Below are positions 1 to 60,596 of a stretch of DNA of 64,000 nt, piece by piece. The DNA is from Bombiscardovia coagulans. GTDB lineage: Bacteria; Actinomycetota; Actinomycetes; Actinomycetales; Bifidobacteriaceae. Positions within the stretch are counted from its first letter, which is position 1. Every line of letters starts with the position of its first letter. Location: assembly GCF_002259585.1 (NCBI RefSeq), contig NZ_MWWS01000004.1, forward strand, positions 372,001 through 436,000, read 5' to 3'. A program made the translations under genes and the position numbers. The notes beneath the pieces are model-generated. The model was not told the DNA's origin and did not search any database. It was given only the letters and a program-made list of their open reading frames with translations.

Positions 1-2560
1 AGCATAGTCGCTATCATGCTTTCGGGATCATCCCCGCATGCACGGGGAACACCGTGGCACCATACAGCACGCTGACCTCGCTTTTGGGATCATCCCCGCA
101 TGCACGGGGAACACCGCATATCACTAGTAGTGACGGCATGGAGCTCACGGATCATCCCCGCATGCACGGGGAACACCTGGTGAGTGTCGGCATTATCGGC
201 GCTTTTAGGGGATCATCCCCGCATGCACGGGGAACACTCGGTAGTAGATGGTACTATTGATTCTTCTAAAGGATCATCCCCGCATGCACGGGGAACACAG
301 AATCCTCTACAGCCCAGCCATCAGCCTGCCAGGATCATCCCCGCATGCACGGGGAACACCCCACGGATCACAAAGTGAACAACAAGTGGCTGGGATCATC
401 CCCGCATGCACGGGGAACACTGAGCGTGCAGATGCTTTCGCTGCTGCACTCCAGGATCATCCCCGCATGCACGGGGAACACTGTCAGATACAGGGCGGCG
501 TGTCGTACTTCAGTGGGATCATCCCCGCATGCACGGGGAACACTAATCCCACATCCTTTAAGCCTATCGGCGTAAAGGATCATCCCCGCATGCACGGGGA
601 ACACCCACGGCAAGCCCAACGTCAAATGGCGAAACGGGGATCATCCCCGCATGCACGGGGAACACAATACCGGGATCATAGGCTTCCCATACTCCTTGGG
701 ATCATCCCCGCATGCACGGGGAACACCACGCGCTGGCGGGGCACAATATCCCGCCATGAGGATCATCCCCGCATGCACGGGGAACACATGCTCTTGTCAA
801 TCGCATTTGCGGAACGTACAGGATCATCCCCGCATGCACGGGGAACACAGGGACCAAAGGCATTCAGTGGGGACACGTCTAGGATCATCCCCGCATGCAC
901 GGGGAACACAATACAAGAAACTACTAAAAATTAAAAAGAACAGGATCATCCCCGCATGCACGGGGAACACACAGGTAGCTTTTACAAGGTAGCTTTTCGA
1001 CTTGGATCATCCCCGCATGCACGGGGAACACTATAGCTACTCGTGGAATACGCCCTTTGAAGAGGGATCATCCCCGCATGCACGGGGAACACATACGCCA
1101 ATATTTAGTGATAAATTGCGTACCAGGATCATCCCCGCATGCACGGGGAACACAAAACATCATCAGCGTACCTGCCTTTAGCGATGGGATCATCCCCGCA
1201 TGCACGGGGAGGAACACTTATGGACATCACGGAAACGGGAGGAACACTAAGGATCATCCCCGCATGCACGGGGAACACTCTACCACATCCTGAAGTACAT
1301 GGTGATATTAGGGATCATCCCCGCATGCACGGGGAACACGTAAATCCAATTCCGGAATCTCTGAGTGAGCTAGGATCATCCCCGCATGCACGGGGAACAC
1401 GGCCCGCAAGGTGTTATTAAGCACGATTCGGCGGGATCATCCCCGCATGCACGGGGAACACAATTTTGGCTGACAGTTTTTACGATTGCTTTTGGGATCA
1501 TCCCCGCATGCACGGGGAACACCGTGAGGGATGGTAGAGGTGGCAATAGTGAAAGGGATCATCCCCGCATGCACGGGGAACACGAAGACGGAGCCTAAGA
1601 CACCAAAAGAAAGACGGGATCATCCCCGCATGCACGGGGAACACATACGATCAGCTACCGCGCTTTGCAGGATCTGGGGATCATCCCCGCATGCACGGGG
1701 AACACTGTCATCACCTGGAACAATATGATCACAATCAGGGATCATCCCCGCATGCACGGGGAACACGATGACAGGATTTTACAGCGATTTACGTACGGGG
1801 GATCATCCCCGCATGCACGGGGAACACTTTACTTTCTATGCAGCTTTATCGTTCGCATAGGGATCATCCCCGCATGCACGGGGAACACGGGTCCCAAGCA
1901 TTCTGTGAATACATTCTACGGGGATCATCCCCGCATGCACGGGGAACACAGGCAAGAGAGTCTCCAGAGGGTGTCTGGAGGGGGATCATCCCCGCATGCA
2001 CGGGGAACACGCACGGTCTTCATCCCGCCTAAAGCGCAGGCGAGGATCATCCCCGCATGCACGGGGAACACTTGGTGTGAGTGATAGGACTTTGCGCCGA
2101 TATAGGATCATCCCCGCATGCACGGGGAACACGCTGATGTCGACAAGTCAGAGCGTGTACCGATAGGATCATCCCCGCATGCACGGGGAACACTGTAGTC
2201 GATGTTTTGCTTGCCATTGTCCTCGGGGATCATCCCCGCATGCACGGGGAACACGTTGTAGCTGTCGCTAGCTTCGTTGGCCATAAAGGATCATCCCCGC
2301 ATGCACGGGGAACACCTCACGGTCGAGTACCCGGATGGGGTGGAAATGGGATCATCCCCGCATGCACGGGGAACACGAAAACAGGATTAGCTCGATAACA
2401 GAGGAACCAGGATCATCCCCGCATGCACGGGGAACACACTACCTACTGGCTTCAACAAGCAAACGCTGGCGGGATCATCCCCGCATGCACGGGGAACACG
2501 TCAGATACAGGGCGGCGTGTCGTACTTTAGTGGGATCATCCCCGCATGCACGGGGAACAC
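1..2560 (-). CRISPR. Type I-E style CRISPR array, 42 repeats in window
   Basis: Forty-two 28-bp repeats occur at a period of 61-62 bp, from 25-52 to 2533-2560, separated by 41 full spacers of 33 or 34 bp. The first 24 bases are a partial spacer, so the array continues to the left. Read on the minus strand the repeat starts GTGTTCCCCGTGCATG, continues CGGGGATGATCC, and can fold a CCCCG/CGGGG hairpin, as is known for type I-E repeats processed by Cas6e. All repeats look identical except the one at 1187-1217, which has a 3-nt insertion. The spacers at 482-515 and 2500-2532 are near duplicates. Orientation is inferred from the repeat sense and the AT-rich leader with a promoter at the right end. 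No cas gene is in the window. Confidence 0.98.
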
Positions 2561-2700
2561 ACTTAGAAAACACTGTAATAAAGCGGTTTAATTATAGCAT
2601 TGTAGCGTAATTTTATTAGTTTGCTCTGTATCTGTACATATTTTTATTCTATTTGTTCATAGACTCATGCGCATATTACACGGGCTCACCTCAGTGCTTC
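2561..2700 (-). promoter_or_regulatory. CRISPR leader and pre-crRNA promoter
   Basis: The roughly 110 bp next to the last repeat are very AT-rich, unlike the GC-balanced array. On the minus strand an extended -10 element, TGCTATAAT, lies at 2591-2599, so transcription would start some 20-25 bases before the first repeat. No good -35 is visible, which an extended -10 can tolerate. This fits a leader, and makes the rightmost spacer (2500-2532) the most recent acquisition. The leader role is inference; the AT richness and -10 are seen directly. Confidence 0.65.
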
Positions 2701-7382: not shown

Positions 7383-7411
7383 GCATCATCCCCGCATGTG
7401 CGAGGGAAAAC
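7383..7411 (-). repeat. Degenerate solitary CRISPR-like repeat
   Basis: Read on the minus strand it runs GTTTTCCCTCGCACATG then CGGGGATGATGC, 29 bases. Its 3' half shares the 14 bases CATGCGGGGATGAT exactly with the array consensus, while the 5' half has several substitutions and one extra base. It lies about 4.8 kb from the leader end of the array in the same orientation. No second clear repeat follows at 61-bp spacing; weak ATCATCCCC-like matches near 7466 are not convincing. Confidence 0.6.
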
Positions 7412-7751
7412 TCCGTAGTTTTTACCGGACAACTTGCGTTCTGATTCACATAATCAGGAGCCTGACTATCATCCCCTAGACCCAGAGGTGAGTCCTGCCA
7501 ACCCTGTCCATCCAAGAACATTGTGGTTGATCCCCACCTAATCTGTTCGCAGGTTGATTCGATGAATCTGGAGTCGTCTCCCTTCCAATGTTCGGGATGA
7601 CCCACTAGATGCTTCTTCTTTCAGTCCTTGTCCCTTGAATTACCCTCCCCTGTCGAGCGCCCAGGGGGAAACTGACAGACGGACGCACCAATGAAGCAAC
7701 ACTGCCATTTGTGCATCCCTTTTCCAGAGTTAACCTGTGCCCACTGTGTCA

Positions 7752-30152: not shown

Positions 30153-32045
30153 CTACTCTACCGTTACAGATTTAGCCAAGTTTCTAGGTTTATCTACATC
30201 AAGACCCTTATCTTTTGCCATTTCCAAAGCAAACAGTTGCAAAGGTACAACATCAACCAGCGGACTCATGAGTGTGGGGCATGTTGGGCGCCAGAAGACT
30301 ACATCTGCATAGCGGTCAACATCCGGGTCACCTTCTTCTGCCACAGCAATAACAAAAGCACCACGTGCTTTTACTTCTTCAATAGATGAGATCACCTTGT
30401 TATGCAGTAAGTCCCTACCACGAGAACTCGGTACGATTACCACGATTGGCTCACCCTCTTCGACCAGGGCAATAGGGCCATGCTTAAGCTCACCAGCTGC
30501 AAAGCCTTCAGTGAAAGTATAGGCAATCTCTTTCAGTTTTAAAGCACCTTCCAGAGCAACTGGATAACCCACATGCCTTCCTAAGAAGAGGAAAGATTTA
30601 GCAGTAATAAGGCTCTTTGCAGCGCGTGCGATCGTTTGAGTTTGTGTATCTAACACCCATTGGATTTTACGCGGCATATCCTTTAAGGATTCCACTACCT
30701 GATGAATTTCGTCACGGAACATAGTTCCTTTGACTTGTGCAAGATATAAACCAAGCAGGTATGCTGCTACAACCTGTGAGACAAAAGCCTTGGTTGAAGC
30801 CACTGCAATTTCCGGGCCCGCATGTGTATACAAAACGGCATCAGATTCACGGGGAATAGAAGATCCCTGGGTATTACATATTGCCAAAACACGTGAACCT
30901 TGCTCACGAGCATGCCTCAGGGCCATGAGGGTGTCCATCGTCTCTCCAGACTGAGAGATGGCAACCACAAGTGTACGAGGTGTCAAAATTGGGTCCCTAT
31001 AACGGAATTCATGAGCTAGTTCTACTTCTACTGGAATGCGCACCCAGTGTTCAATGGCATACTTGGCAACGAAACCCGCATACGAAGCGGTTCCACAAGC
31101 GACTATGATAATTTTATCTATTTGCCGGAACACTTCAGGCTCAATGTGGACTTCATCCAAGTTCAAATCGCCGTTAGGATTGAAACGACCAAGTAAGGTG
31201 TCAGCGACGGCCGTCGGATCCTCGTGAATCTCTTTATCCATGAAGGAGTCCCAACCACCTTTTTGGGCAGAAGAAGCATCCCAATTAATGGTGAAACGGT
31301 GTGAATCTGTAACAGGATTGCCATCAAAATCAGTAACTTCAATTGATTCTCCGCTGATACAAACGGCCTCATCCTGCCCCAACTCCATAGCCTGCTTGGT
31401 ATGAGCTACAAAAGCTGCTAAATCGGAGCCCAAGAAATTCTCATGCTCACCTAGTCCAACCACCAGTGGTGAATCATGTCGTATTCCCACCACAATTCCT
31501 GGTTGACGCACATCTACTGCAAGAATAGTGAAAGCTCCAGTAAGCATTCGGGCAGTGCGGCGAATAGCTTCAAAAAGATCAGGTTTGCCGGTTTCCGCTA
31601 TGATGGTATCAGCGACTTTACCTGCCAATTTGGCCACAACTTCAGTGTCTGTATTAGATACGAACGTATAGCCTTCAGCTTGCAGGTCGAATTTGAGCTG
31701 AGCCGCATTTTCAATAATTCCGTTGTGAATAACAGCGATTTTCTCGTCTTGGCTGATATGAGGATGTGCGTTCACGTCATTAGGTTCGCCGTTAGTGGCC
31801 CAACGGGTATGGCCTATACCGACTGTAGCTTCGGGCATAGGTTGGGACTCAATACTGTGGACAAGGTTATTGAGCCGGCCCGCCTTCTTACGCCAAGCAA
31901 CTTTCCCCATACCAGGTGCAACAAGAGCCACACCTGCTGAGTCGTAGCCACGATATTCTAACCGTTCAAGTCCTTGTAGGCAGACCTCAAGAGGTTTGGC
32001 ACAGGCAGTATTCGTCAATGAAGCATATCCAACAATTCCACACAT
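30153..32045 (-). CDS. glmS: Glutamine:fructose-6-phosphate aminotransferase
   Basis: Makes glucosamine 6-phosphate for cell-wall precursors. 630 residues. The N-terminal glutamine amidotransferase begins with the nucleophile Cys2 (MCGIVGYA) and has GHTRWATNGEPN; the two SIS domains contain CGTASYAG, SQSGETMDTL and the C-terminal DKPRNLAKSVTVE. I see no Shine-Dalgarno before the ATG; a TAGTAT box 8 bases upstream suggests a very short leader. No glmS ribozyme-like context was recognised. Confidence 0.96.
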   Translation of the reverse strand: MCGIVGYASLTNTACAKPLEVCLQGLERLEYRGYDSAGVALVAPGMGKVAWRKKAGRLNNLVHSIESQPMPEATVGIGHTRWATNGEPNDVNAHPHISQDEKIAVIHNGIIENAAQLKFDLQAEGYTFVSNTDTEVVAKLAGKVADTIIAETGKPDLFEAIRRTARMLTGAFTILAVDVRQPGIVVGIRHDSPLVVGLGEHENFLGSDLAAFVAHTKQAMELGQDEAVCISGESIEVTDFDGNPVTDSHRFTINWDASSAQKGGWDSFMDKEIHEDPTAVADTLLGRFNPNGDLNLDEVHIEPEVFRQIDKIIIVACGTASYAGFVAKYAIEHWVRIPVEVELAHEFRYRDPILTPRTLVVAISQSGETMDTLMALRHAREQGSRVLAICNTQGSSIPRESDAVLYTHAGPEIAVASTKAFVSQVVAAYLLGLYLAQVKGTMFRDEIHQVVESLKDMPRKIQWVLDTQTQTIARAAKSLITAKSFLFLGRHVGYPVALEGALKLKEIAYTFTEGFAAGELKHGPIALVEEGEPIVVIVPSSRGRDLLHNKVISSIEEVKARGAFVIAVAEEGDPDVDRYADVVFWRPTCPTLMSPLVDVVPLQLFALEMAKDKGLDVDKPRNLAKSVTVE

Positions 32046-59844: not shown

Positions 59845-60596
59845 GATGTCCTCCCCCAAGCTCGACCTTTCTCACAAGACCGATACTCTTAGTTTGACTT
59901 ACCCCTGTAACATTAGCGCACATGAGAGCCACAGCGCTATAGTTATCGACGACCGCGTATTGTTACCAAAGCAAATTCATCTCAGAATATATCAAATGAC
60001 TAGAAAAAATGATAGGAAGTAATCCGAGAACTTGTATATTGTAACAATGCGATGAAAATGCATGGATCATCCCCGCATGCACGGGGAGCACAGAGGTGTC
60101 ATTTTGACAGGTCTAGAATCCCCGGGAACACCTATAACTACGAGGACACAATGCAGGAGTCTAGTCATTTTTAGCACAGTGGCTGCCTATAGCACGCAGT
60201 ACTGCCCCAAGCACATCTCATAACAGGTAACTGATTGTCCTGTAAGACATAAAGTGCTTGCATATACAACAAGCCCTTTGATAAAGAGACATTGAAAGCA
60301 CCTGCCATGTAGGTGTATAACATGGTTGACCAACCCAGCACGCAATAGCTGAGCTTCTCTAGAAGAAACGATTGCAAACAATCACGCCCCAGACACTTGA
60401 CGCTTCATACAATAACCTAGTTTTGGTGCAACCTAACAATCTTGTGGAGACTGTGTAAAGTGCAGTAAAGACTTCGTGTATATCCGTTGCAAGCCTTGTC
60501 TGAGACTCTAGTGTGTAGACAGGAAAGAAAATTGGTTTATTCGCACAAGTAACGCAAGTAGACCAAACAACAAGGTGTACTGCGCCACAGTAGGGC
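59845..60596. other. Intergenic stretch upstream of the mevalonate genes
   Basis: About 750 bp without a supported gene. It contains a solitary CRISPR repeat (60064-60091) and a loop-deleted partner to its right (about 60115-60131). To the left, in the minus-strand sense, a 33-base spacer-like segment and then a T-run (near 60005) follow. The minus frames at 60171-60381 have no recognisable features. A promoter for the thiolase gene should lie in the last 150 bp but no clear hexamer pair stands out. Confidence 0.5.
60064..60131 (-). repeat. Orphan CRISPR repeat with degenerate partner
   Basis: 60064-60091 matches the main array repeat at 27 of 28 positions (GTGCTCCCCG instead of GTGTTCCCCG on the minus strand). 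About 24 bases upstream in the minus sense, GTGTTCCC is joined directly to CGGGGAT (60131 down to about 60117), that is, a repeat that has lost its loop and one arm edge. It is about 57.5 kb from the array. It may be a remnant mini-array or a CRISPR-derived small-RNA gene. Confidence 0.8.

Follow-up and report, generated by a model that had tools for sequence, protein, structure and literature searches.

An apparently re-captured spacer in a type I-E-like CRISPR array of Bombiscardovia coagulans whose cas genes are largely missing

Spacers of different age that address the same or overlapping protospacers are known from Legionella pneumophila and LME-1 (PMC5071653). In the sections of that report used here, the older spacer of an overlapping pair is mismatched in the seed or the PAM, the same or overlapping spacers within one array are read as repeated invasion by related elements, and independent laboratory captures of one protospacer are described. 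For Lactobacillus acidophilus NCFM, the relevant passage of a review (PMC6990116) describes a deleted cas cassette and six genome-targeting spacers. Bifidobacterial type I-E systems are covered by PMC4521832, PMC7284854 and PMC8482600; the PAM is given as AAC in the pertinent parts of the latter two, and PMC7284854 lists GAAG too. Finally, AcrIB3 is summarized in a review citing Katz 2024 (PMC13131331) as a Cas5-like anti-CRISPR, 38% identical to Cas5, that acts on type I-B.

The locus of B. coagulans resembles the Legionella case, as far as those sections describe it, in that same or overlapping spacers of different age lie within one array (array 1). However, in Legionella the target has been identified and the type I-C system works, whereas here we found no target for the spacer pair of interest (spacers 1 and 34) and no working cas set. 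As in the review's account of L. acidophilus NCFM, an array with self-targets was kept and cas genes were lost; unlike NCFM as described there, B. coagulans retains two arrays, and its targeted element contains a truncated cas5 (cas5'), cas6 and a cas1 stub. Array 1 shares its repeat type, its length and an AAC PAM with the bifidobacterial type I-E systems as reported in the cited parts, but cas3, cse1, cas7 and cas1 were not found in the B. coagulans genome. The cas5' of the element is, like AcrIB3 in the review's summary, a Cas5 homologue that lacks part of Cas5 and lies outside a cas operon.

The window, that is, the whole 64,000-nucleotide stretch analysed, corresponds to positions 372001-436000 of contig NZ_MWWS01000004.1 (C10) in a genome of 1.74 Mb, 15 contigs and 99.5% completeness. 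Repeat type, phage match and congener loci suggest an affinity with bee-gut bifidobacteria. Array 1 spans C10:370008-374560 and comprises 74 spacers between 75 repeats; its leader-proximal part lies at window positions 25-2560 on the minus strand, with 42 of the 75 repeats and spacers 1-41 whole. The repeat is 28 nt long, and 71 copies were exact, two had one mismatch, one was degenerate and terminal, and one carried an insertion. Spacers were 33 nt long in 65 of 74 cases and 34 nt in eight. A palindromic repeat of 28-29 nt with a 61-nt period marks type I-E arrays of the Bifidobacterium type, which array 1 matches, and similar repeats were present in the Cse1-bearing stretches of nine of the ten fetched congener loci, the tenth being without an array. 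An Rfam scan of the window gave no family at gathering score.

We next consider the orientation of array 1, on which the age of its spacers depends. The crRNA-sense repeat GTGTTCCCCGTGCATGCGGGGATGATCC is on the minus strand, the degenerate terminal repeat (three mismatches) forms the far-left end, and the sequence preceding the first repeat (window 2561-2690, minus strand, far end approximate) ends like congener type I-E leaders. By eye, it resembled the cas-adjacent leaders of eight congener loci, with an AAGT-GTG end at 8/8, TTCTAAGT at 4/8 and an AAACT box at 7/8. These three observations together place the leader on the right, next to 2500-2532, as the sequence-only reading had assumed. 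Sixty-nine of the 74 spacer units began with C or T, and AA preceded this first base at all eight matches of array 1 spacers in a resident element (AA-C or AA-T, the hyphen standing before the first base of the unit), indicating an AAC-like PAM. The E. coli equivalent of this first base of the 33-nt unit is the last base of the repeat, which derives from the PAM. The consulted part of PMC8482600 agrees with this correspondence. Matches without AA were those of spacer 65 outside the element (nine mismatches), spacer 23 in the window (also nine), and spacer 4 of array 2 in the element (eight mismatches).

Several repeat-like sequences departed from this regular layout. At window 1187-1250, a repeat contained a two-base insertion, GGGGAGGAACAC, and its 36-nt spacer included a copy of the repeat tail thus altered, CGGGAGGAACAC, which looks like an aberrant integration. 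A single repeat with one mismatch was located at 60064-60091, intergenic and upstream of a Fur-like gene (named by eye), and was followed at a distance of some 30 bases by another, incomplete repeat, ATCCCCGGGAACACC; we read it as a solitary mini-array or a remnant. A degenerate repeat-like sequence, GCATCATCCCCGCATGTGCGAGGGAAAAC, was also intergenic, at 7385-7413.

Spacer 1, adjacent to the leader (2500-2532, minus strand, 33 nt, beginning CACTAAAG), and spacer 34 (482-515, minus strand, 34 nt, beginning CACTGAAG) were the same at 32 of 33 bases. The lone difference was at base 5 in the crRNA sense, and spacer 34 was one base longer at the PAM-distal end. Thus, the near-identity, the single changed base and the extra base in the older copy, all claimed from the sequence beforehand, were reproduced. 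The change does lie at the fifth base after the repeat and within the seed, but not at seed position 5, as that reading implied; since the first base of the unit is PAM-derived (AA-Y), it falls at position 4 in E. coli numbering. By chance, about 4e-15 pairs agreeing at 32 or more of 33 bases at register 0 are expected over all 2,701 spacer pairs, and the best pair in 200 shuffled arrays reached only 21/33.

Among the 2,701 pairs, only 1/34, 19/48 and 33/47 stood out, indicating that the neighbours of spacers 1 and 34 are unrelated. Spacer 19 (1401-1433, minus strand) matched spacer 48 (C10:371624-371656, outside the window) in register at 26 of 33 bases, with differences at bases 2, 10, 16, 19, 21, 28 and 31. 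Read by eye in the frame GPQG[V/I]IKHDS[A/E], five of these seven differences take third-codon positions. A codon-degenerate search of viral contigs for the 19/48 protospacer gave no match. Spacers 33 (544-576, minus strand) and 47 (outside the window) begin with 14 nt that are reverse complements of each other; that is, the two overlap by 14 nt at their PAM-proximal ends on opposite strands. Both translate to adjoining parts of one protein stretch of BadAztec phages, NPTSFEPYGINYTYRKL, with translated scores of 44 and 41, each below the shuffled maximum of 47; spacer 33 shares 22-23 of 33 bases at the BadAztec site, whereas at the DNA level spacer 47 matches another part of the phage best. 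We retained this putative link, weak for each spacer taken singly, because both adjoin in one frame. When all 74 spacers were compared with phages, the sole match with E < 1 was that of spacer 10 (1950-1982, minus strand) to Bifidobacterium phage BigBern1 (30/33 bases, MT006237:4460-4492, PAM GA-C). Three rows for Staphylococcus phages, at E 6, were disregarded.

The best supported reading of spacers 1 and 34 is independent re-capture of a homologous protospacer, and we assign a probability of roughly 0.83 to two separate captures, whatever drove them. The different lengths (33 versus 34 nt), the unrelated neighbours, the same-register pair 19/48 and the overlapping pair 33/47 favour this reading, and a 34-nt length, found in eight of 74 spacers, is usual length variation that fits capture. 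The near-identity and the lengths of the two spacers, the orientation of the array, the further pairs, the self-targeting and the missing cas genes are observed; two source elements, a coding frame and an order of events are what we infer. Spacer 34 and then spacer 1 would have been captured separately from two related mobile elements one base apart, 33 acquisitions from each other by position if losses are ignored. Cas1-Cas2 would have cut beside the same PAM both times, measuring the far edge once at 34 nt and once at 33 nt, and the base change would be ordinary divergence, probably synonymous, in a coding gene. Later loss of the cas machinery would then have frozen array 1. Of the explanations offered beforehand, a related phage sampled at the same protospacer edge fits best, although the source need not be a phage.

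We also asked how often same-protospacer pairs are expected. Under random AA-Y sampling of 40-kb source lineages, the expected number was 2.2 for one lineage, 0.4 for five and 0.19 for ten; two were seen, which would be unusual with ten or more lineages (P 0.016), in which case priming or acquisition hot spots may have contributed. The count is compatible with a few recurrent lineages, and suggests priming or hot spots if the lineages were many.

The sequence-only reading had proposed a search of phages, prophages and plasmids for both spacers; our searches of phages, plasmids and the own genome yielded a protospacer and PAM for neither. No protospacer of spacers 1/34 was present in 50,697 phage records and 72,556 plasmids, among 189 genomes of the family at three mismatches or fewer, or in the own genome within three mismatches outside the array, so the two source elements are putative. 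By blastn against phages and plasmids, spacer 34 gave partial chance-level matches, none reaching 80% coverage. Viral contigs contained no match to codon-degenerate patterns of the pair (two frames and a Q/K variant), and GTDB species genomes contained no protospacer by one such pattern; the sole pattern match, in Vreelandella maris, was in no reading frame of at least 80 aa and was attributed to chance. A plasmid search with the window part of the array returned 52 records, which by our own reading are apparently other CRISPR arrays. A translated scan of all 74 spacers took in six bee-gut Bifidobacterium phages (one at 50.0 of its 51.7 kb), six viral contigs in 21-kb pieces, and 80 kb from the own genome; spacers 1, 34, 19 and 48 scored 37 at best, against a maximum of 47 for one shuffled set.

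One other genome of the family gave a single codon-degenerate match, with one mismatch, encoding VQIKGGVCYFLWDRD in an Eco57I-type methylase (507-aa frame, PF07669). The frame CQIQGGVSYFS of spacers 1/34 resembles VQIKGGVCYFLW of this methylase. In this frame the change between the spacers, TTC/TTT, is silent; in two other open frames, TKVRHAALYL and VRYRAACRTLV, it is missense. Because these other frames exist, we treat the methylase frame as putative. By this likeness, the source gene was perhaps an Eco57I-type DNA methylase, in whose frame the change is likely synonymous.

Array 1 also records encounters with an element that is still resident. C10:1-82.6 kb is an ICE-like element whose PF00589 integrase (C10:80970-82253) adjoins tRNA-Pro(GGG) at 82608-82682. 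A second copy of the tRNA-Pro end was absent within C10:1-140000; therefore, the contig may begin inside the element, short of its left end. The 19 element proteins scanned comprised two FtsK/SpoIIIE proteins (one below the cut-off), one weak AAA_10, three integrases, two Cas proteins and 11 without a family. Separately, the element contains an exact direct repeat of 545 bp (C10:49-593 and 30693-31237, 100%), which near the contig start is possibly an assembly or recombination hot spot.

Eight of the 74 array 1 spacers matched the element with AA-Y, compared with none in five shuffles: three perfectly, three with one mismatch, one with four (spacer 53) and one with nine (spacer 62). Some elements were thus sampled more than once by array 1, in keeping with separate captures. 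The perfect ones were spacer 11 (1889-1921; AA-C, C10:1457-1489, in the element's integrase gene), spacer 12 (1828-1860; AA-C, C10:39657-39689) and spacer 59. Single mismatches were found for spacer 3 (2377-2409; base 30, C10:76460-76492, AA-T), spacer 21 (1279-1311; base 3, in the seed, C10:72471-72503, AA-C) and spacer 28 (849-881; base 25, C10:67724-67756, AA-T); all five of these window spacers are on the minus strand. Spacer 5 of array 2 was also perfect (C10:3084-3116, AA-Y), giving four perfect matches, three from array 1 and one from array 2, with an AAC PAM. Full mismatch scans covered the 74 array 1 and seven array 2 spacers over C10:1-140000 and C10:608001-648000, and the array 1 spacers also over C10:352001-436000; outside the element and the arrays they found just two matches, with nine mismatches each and without AA. 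The rest of the genome was covered by BLAST, with two of ten candidates scored, and as BLAST missed spacers 12 and 59, more self-targets may exist. Spacers 1-10 lie on the leader side of spacer 11; therefore, acquisition presumably continued after the element family was first sampled. With a working Cascade and Cas3, perfect self-targeting spacers should kill the cell or rid it of the element. The coexistence of element and array thus fits a loss of the machinery, and the present array 1 would be a frozen record.

A more specific account, itself a special case of two captures, is that a seed change evaded spacer 34, the mismatched crRNA primed acquisition, and the escaped allele became spacer 1. 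The difference is indeed in the seed, and the Legionella report offers, in the sections cited, a close precedent (PMC5071653). In addition, five of the eight element-matching spacers (3, 21, 28, 53 and 62) have their sites on a single strand within 9 kb, and spacers 11 and 12 stand next to each other in the array, as priming might leave them; however, the 9-kb clustering may only show where the element is best conserved. The probability that a random difference hits the seed is 7/32 = 0.22, and in this small sample of homologous differences 4 of 18 were in the seed against 3.9 expected. This tally took in pairs 1/34 and 19/48, spacers 3, 21, 28 and 53 against the resident element, and spacer 10 against BigBern1. 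Left out as remote were spacers 62, 65 and 23 (nine mismatches each) and 69 (seven to nine), along with spacer 28 against a viral contig (eight), spacers 33 and 47 against BadAztec, and array 2 spacers 1 and 4 (nine and eight). The change is also likely synonymous, 32 other spacers were added between spacers 34 and 1, and the escaped allele was not found in the searched phages, plasmids, viral contigs and genomes. Hence, of the escape and re-acquisition proposed beforehand, re-capture of the same protospacer is well supported, whereas seed escape, with no target allele found, a likely synonymous change and no seed enrichment, appears unlikely.

Recombination or gene conversion between repeats might instead have copied the spacer 34 unit to the leader end, followed by a point mutation and the loss of one base; such a duplication had been named as an alternative and is very improbable. 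Near-identical repeats (71 of 75 exact) make recombination possible, but a single unit would have had to move past 32 others without its neighbours and then acquire both a substitution and a junction change (33 versus 34 nt); moreover, there is no related neighbour pair, and the independent pair 19/48 with its seven differences is hard to account for. An error in sequencing or assembly, or a chimeric array joined from two strains, is hardly credible even in a draft of 15 contigs, as array 1 is internal to a 732-kb contig and the two spacers differ in length as well as in sequence.

Two separate captures require acquisition machinery that B. coagulans now seems to lack. The search covered Cas1 (PF01867), Cse1 (PF09481) and congener Cas3 and Cas7 proteins, and none of these four had a match in the genome. 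In 14 control genomes the PF01867 and PF09481 searches were positive in nine and two, respectively, and the Cas3 and Cas7 protein searches had no positive control. Cse1 was present in nine of the 27 genus genomes searched, and B. coagulans was not one of the nine. By eye, array 1 is flanked by gntR and gluconate-type genes on one side and by tRNA-His and ribosomal-type genes on the other, and no cas gene was seen among the flanking ORFs. With the machinery missing, the "newest" spacer 1 is probably the last one taken before the loss.

The cas operon was near tRNA-Gly(TCC) in seven of the ten fetched congener stretches. Here, some 260 bp separate tRNA-Gly(TCC) (C10:628440-628513) from array 2 (about C10:627729-628178), which has eight repeats (seven exact, one degenerate) of a variant other than that of array 1; roughly the first 146 bp after the tRNA are in common with the element, and there is no room for cas genes in between. 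The 3' end of tRNA-Gly recurs with its flank inside the element as a 199-bp copy (93%) at C10:11033-11231, and the element also carries a cas fragment (cas5', cas6, cas1 stub) at C10:31197-32773. We infer that an element using tRNA-Gly carried off the cas operon, a part of which came to lie in the ICE-like element.

Within this fragment, cas5e lacks its N-terminus (PF09704 positions 17-216) and has 68% identity with a congener Cas5 across 189 residues, compared with the 38% to Cas5 given for AcrIB3 in the review; cas6e is whole (PF08798, 206 bits; 61% to a congener), and the cas1 stub of about 50 codons ends in TPPPEL. The 545-bp repeat reads in frame into cas5e, supplying a ribosome-binding-like site and a start codon (C10:31197) to the N-terminally cut gene, and the intact cas6e follows. 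By analogy with the Cas5 mimic AcrIB3, cas5'-cas6e could be a decoy pair, captured as a weapon, that poisons the type I-E Cascade of entered hosts, with array 1, disarmed by the element, still carrying perfect spacers against it; we consider this quite improbable, and cas5' may be mere debris. Viral contigs held no relatives of the element's Cas6e/Cas5, one unannotated phage record gave a 41% Cas5 match, and 149 plasmid records matched Cas6e/Cas5 at below 60% identity, with ten of the 12 listed annotated beside cas5e.

Re-sampling of related elements is a known kind of event, as the cited sections of PMC5071653 show, and the near-duplicate spacer most likely documents two natural encounters of one host with related elements. 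With homologous spacer pairs of this sort one can ask, on a small scale, whether the seed gathers more differences than expected, and no such excess was seen here. More notable is that the locus appears disarmed. Loss of cas genes with self-targets has precedent in the account of PMC6990116; what is unusual is that the targeted element carries a cas fragment. A resident element that is matched by perfect spacers with a PAM and has a cas fragment within it, in a genome missing most cas genes, looks like a case in which CRISPR was defeated. Should the fragment be functional, Cas-mimic anti-CRISPRs would also be known from conjugative-type elements.
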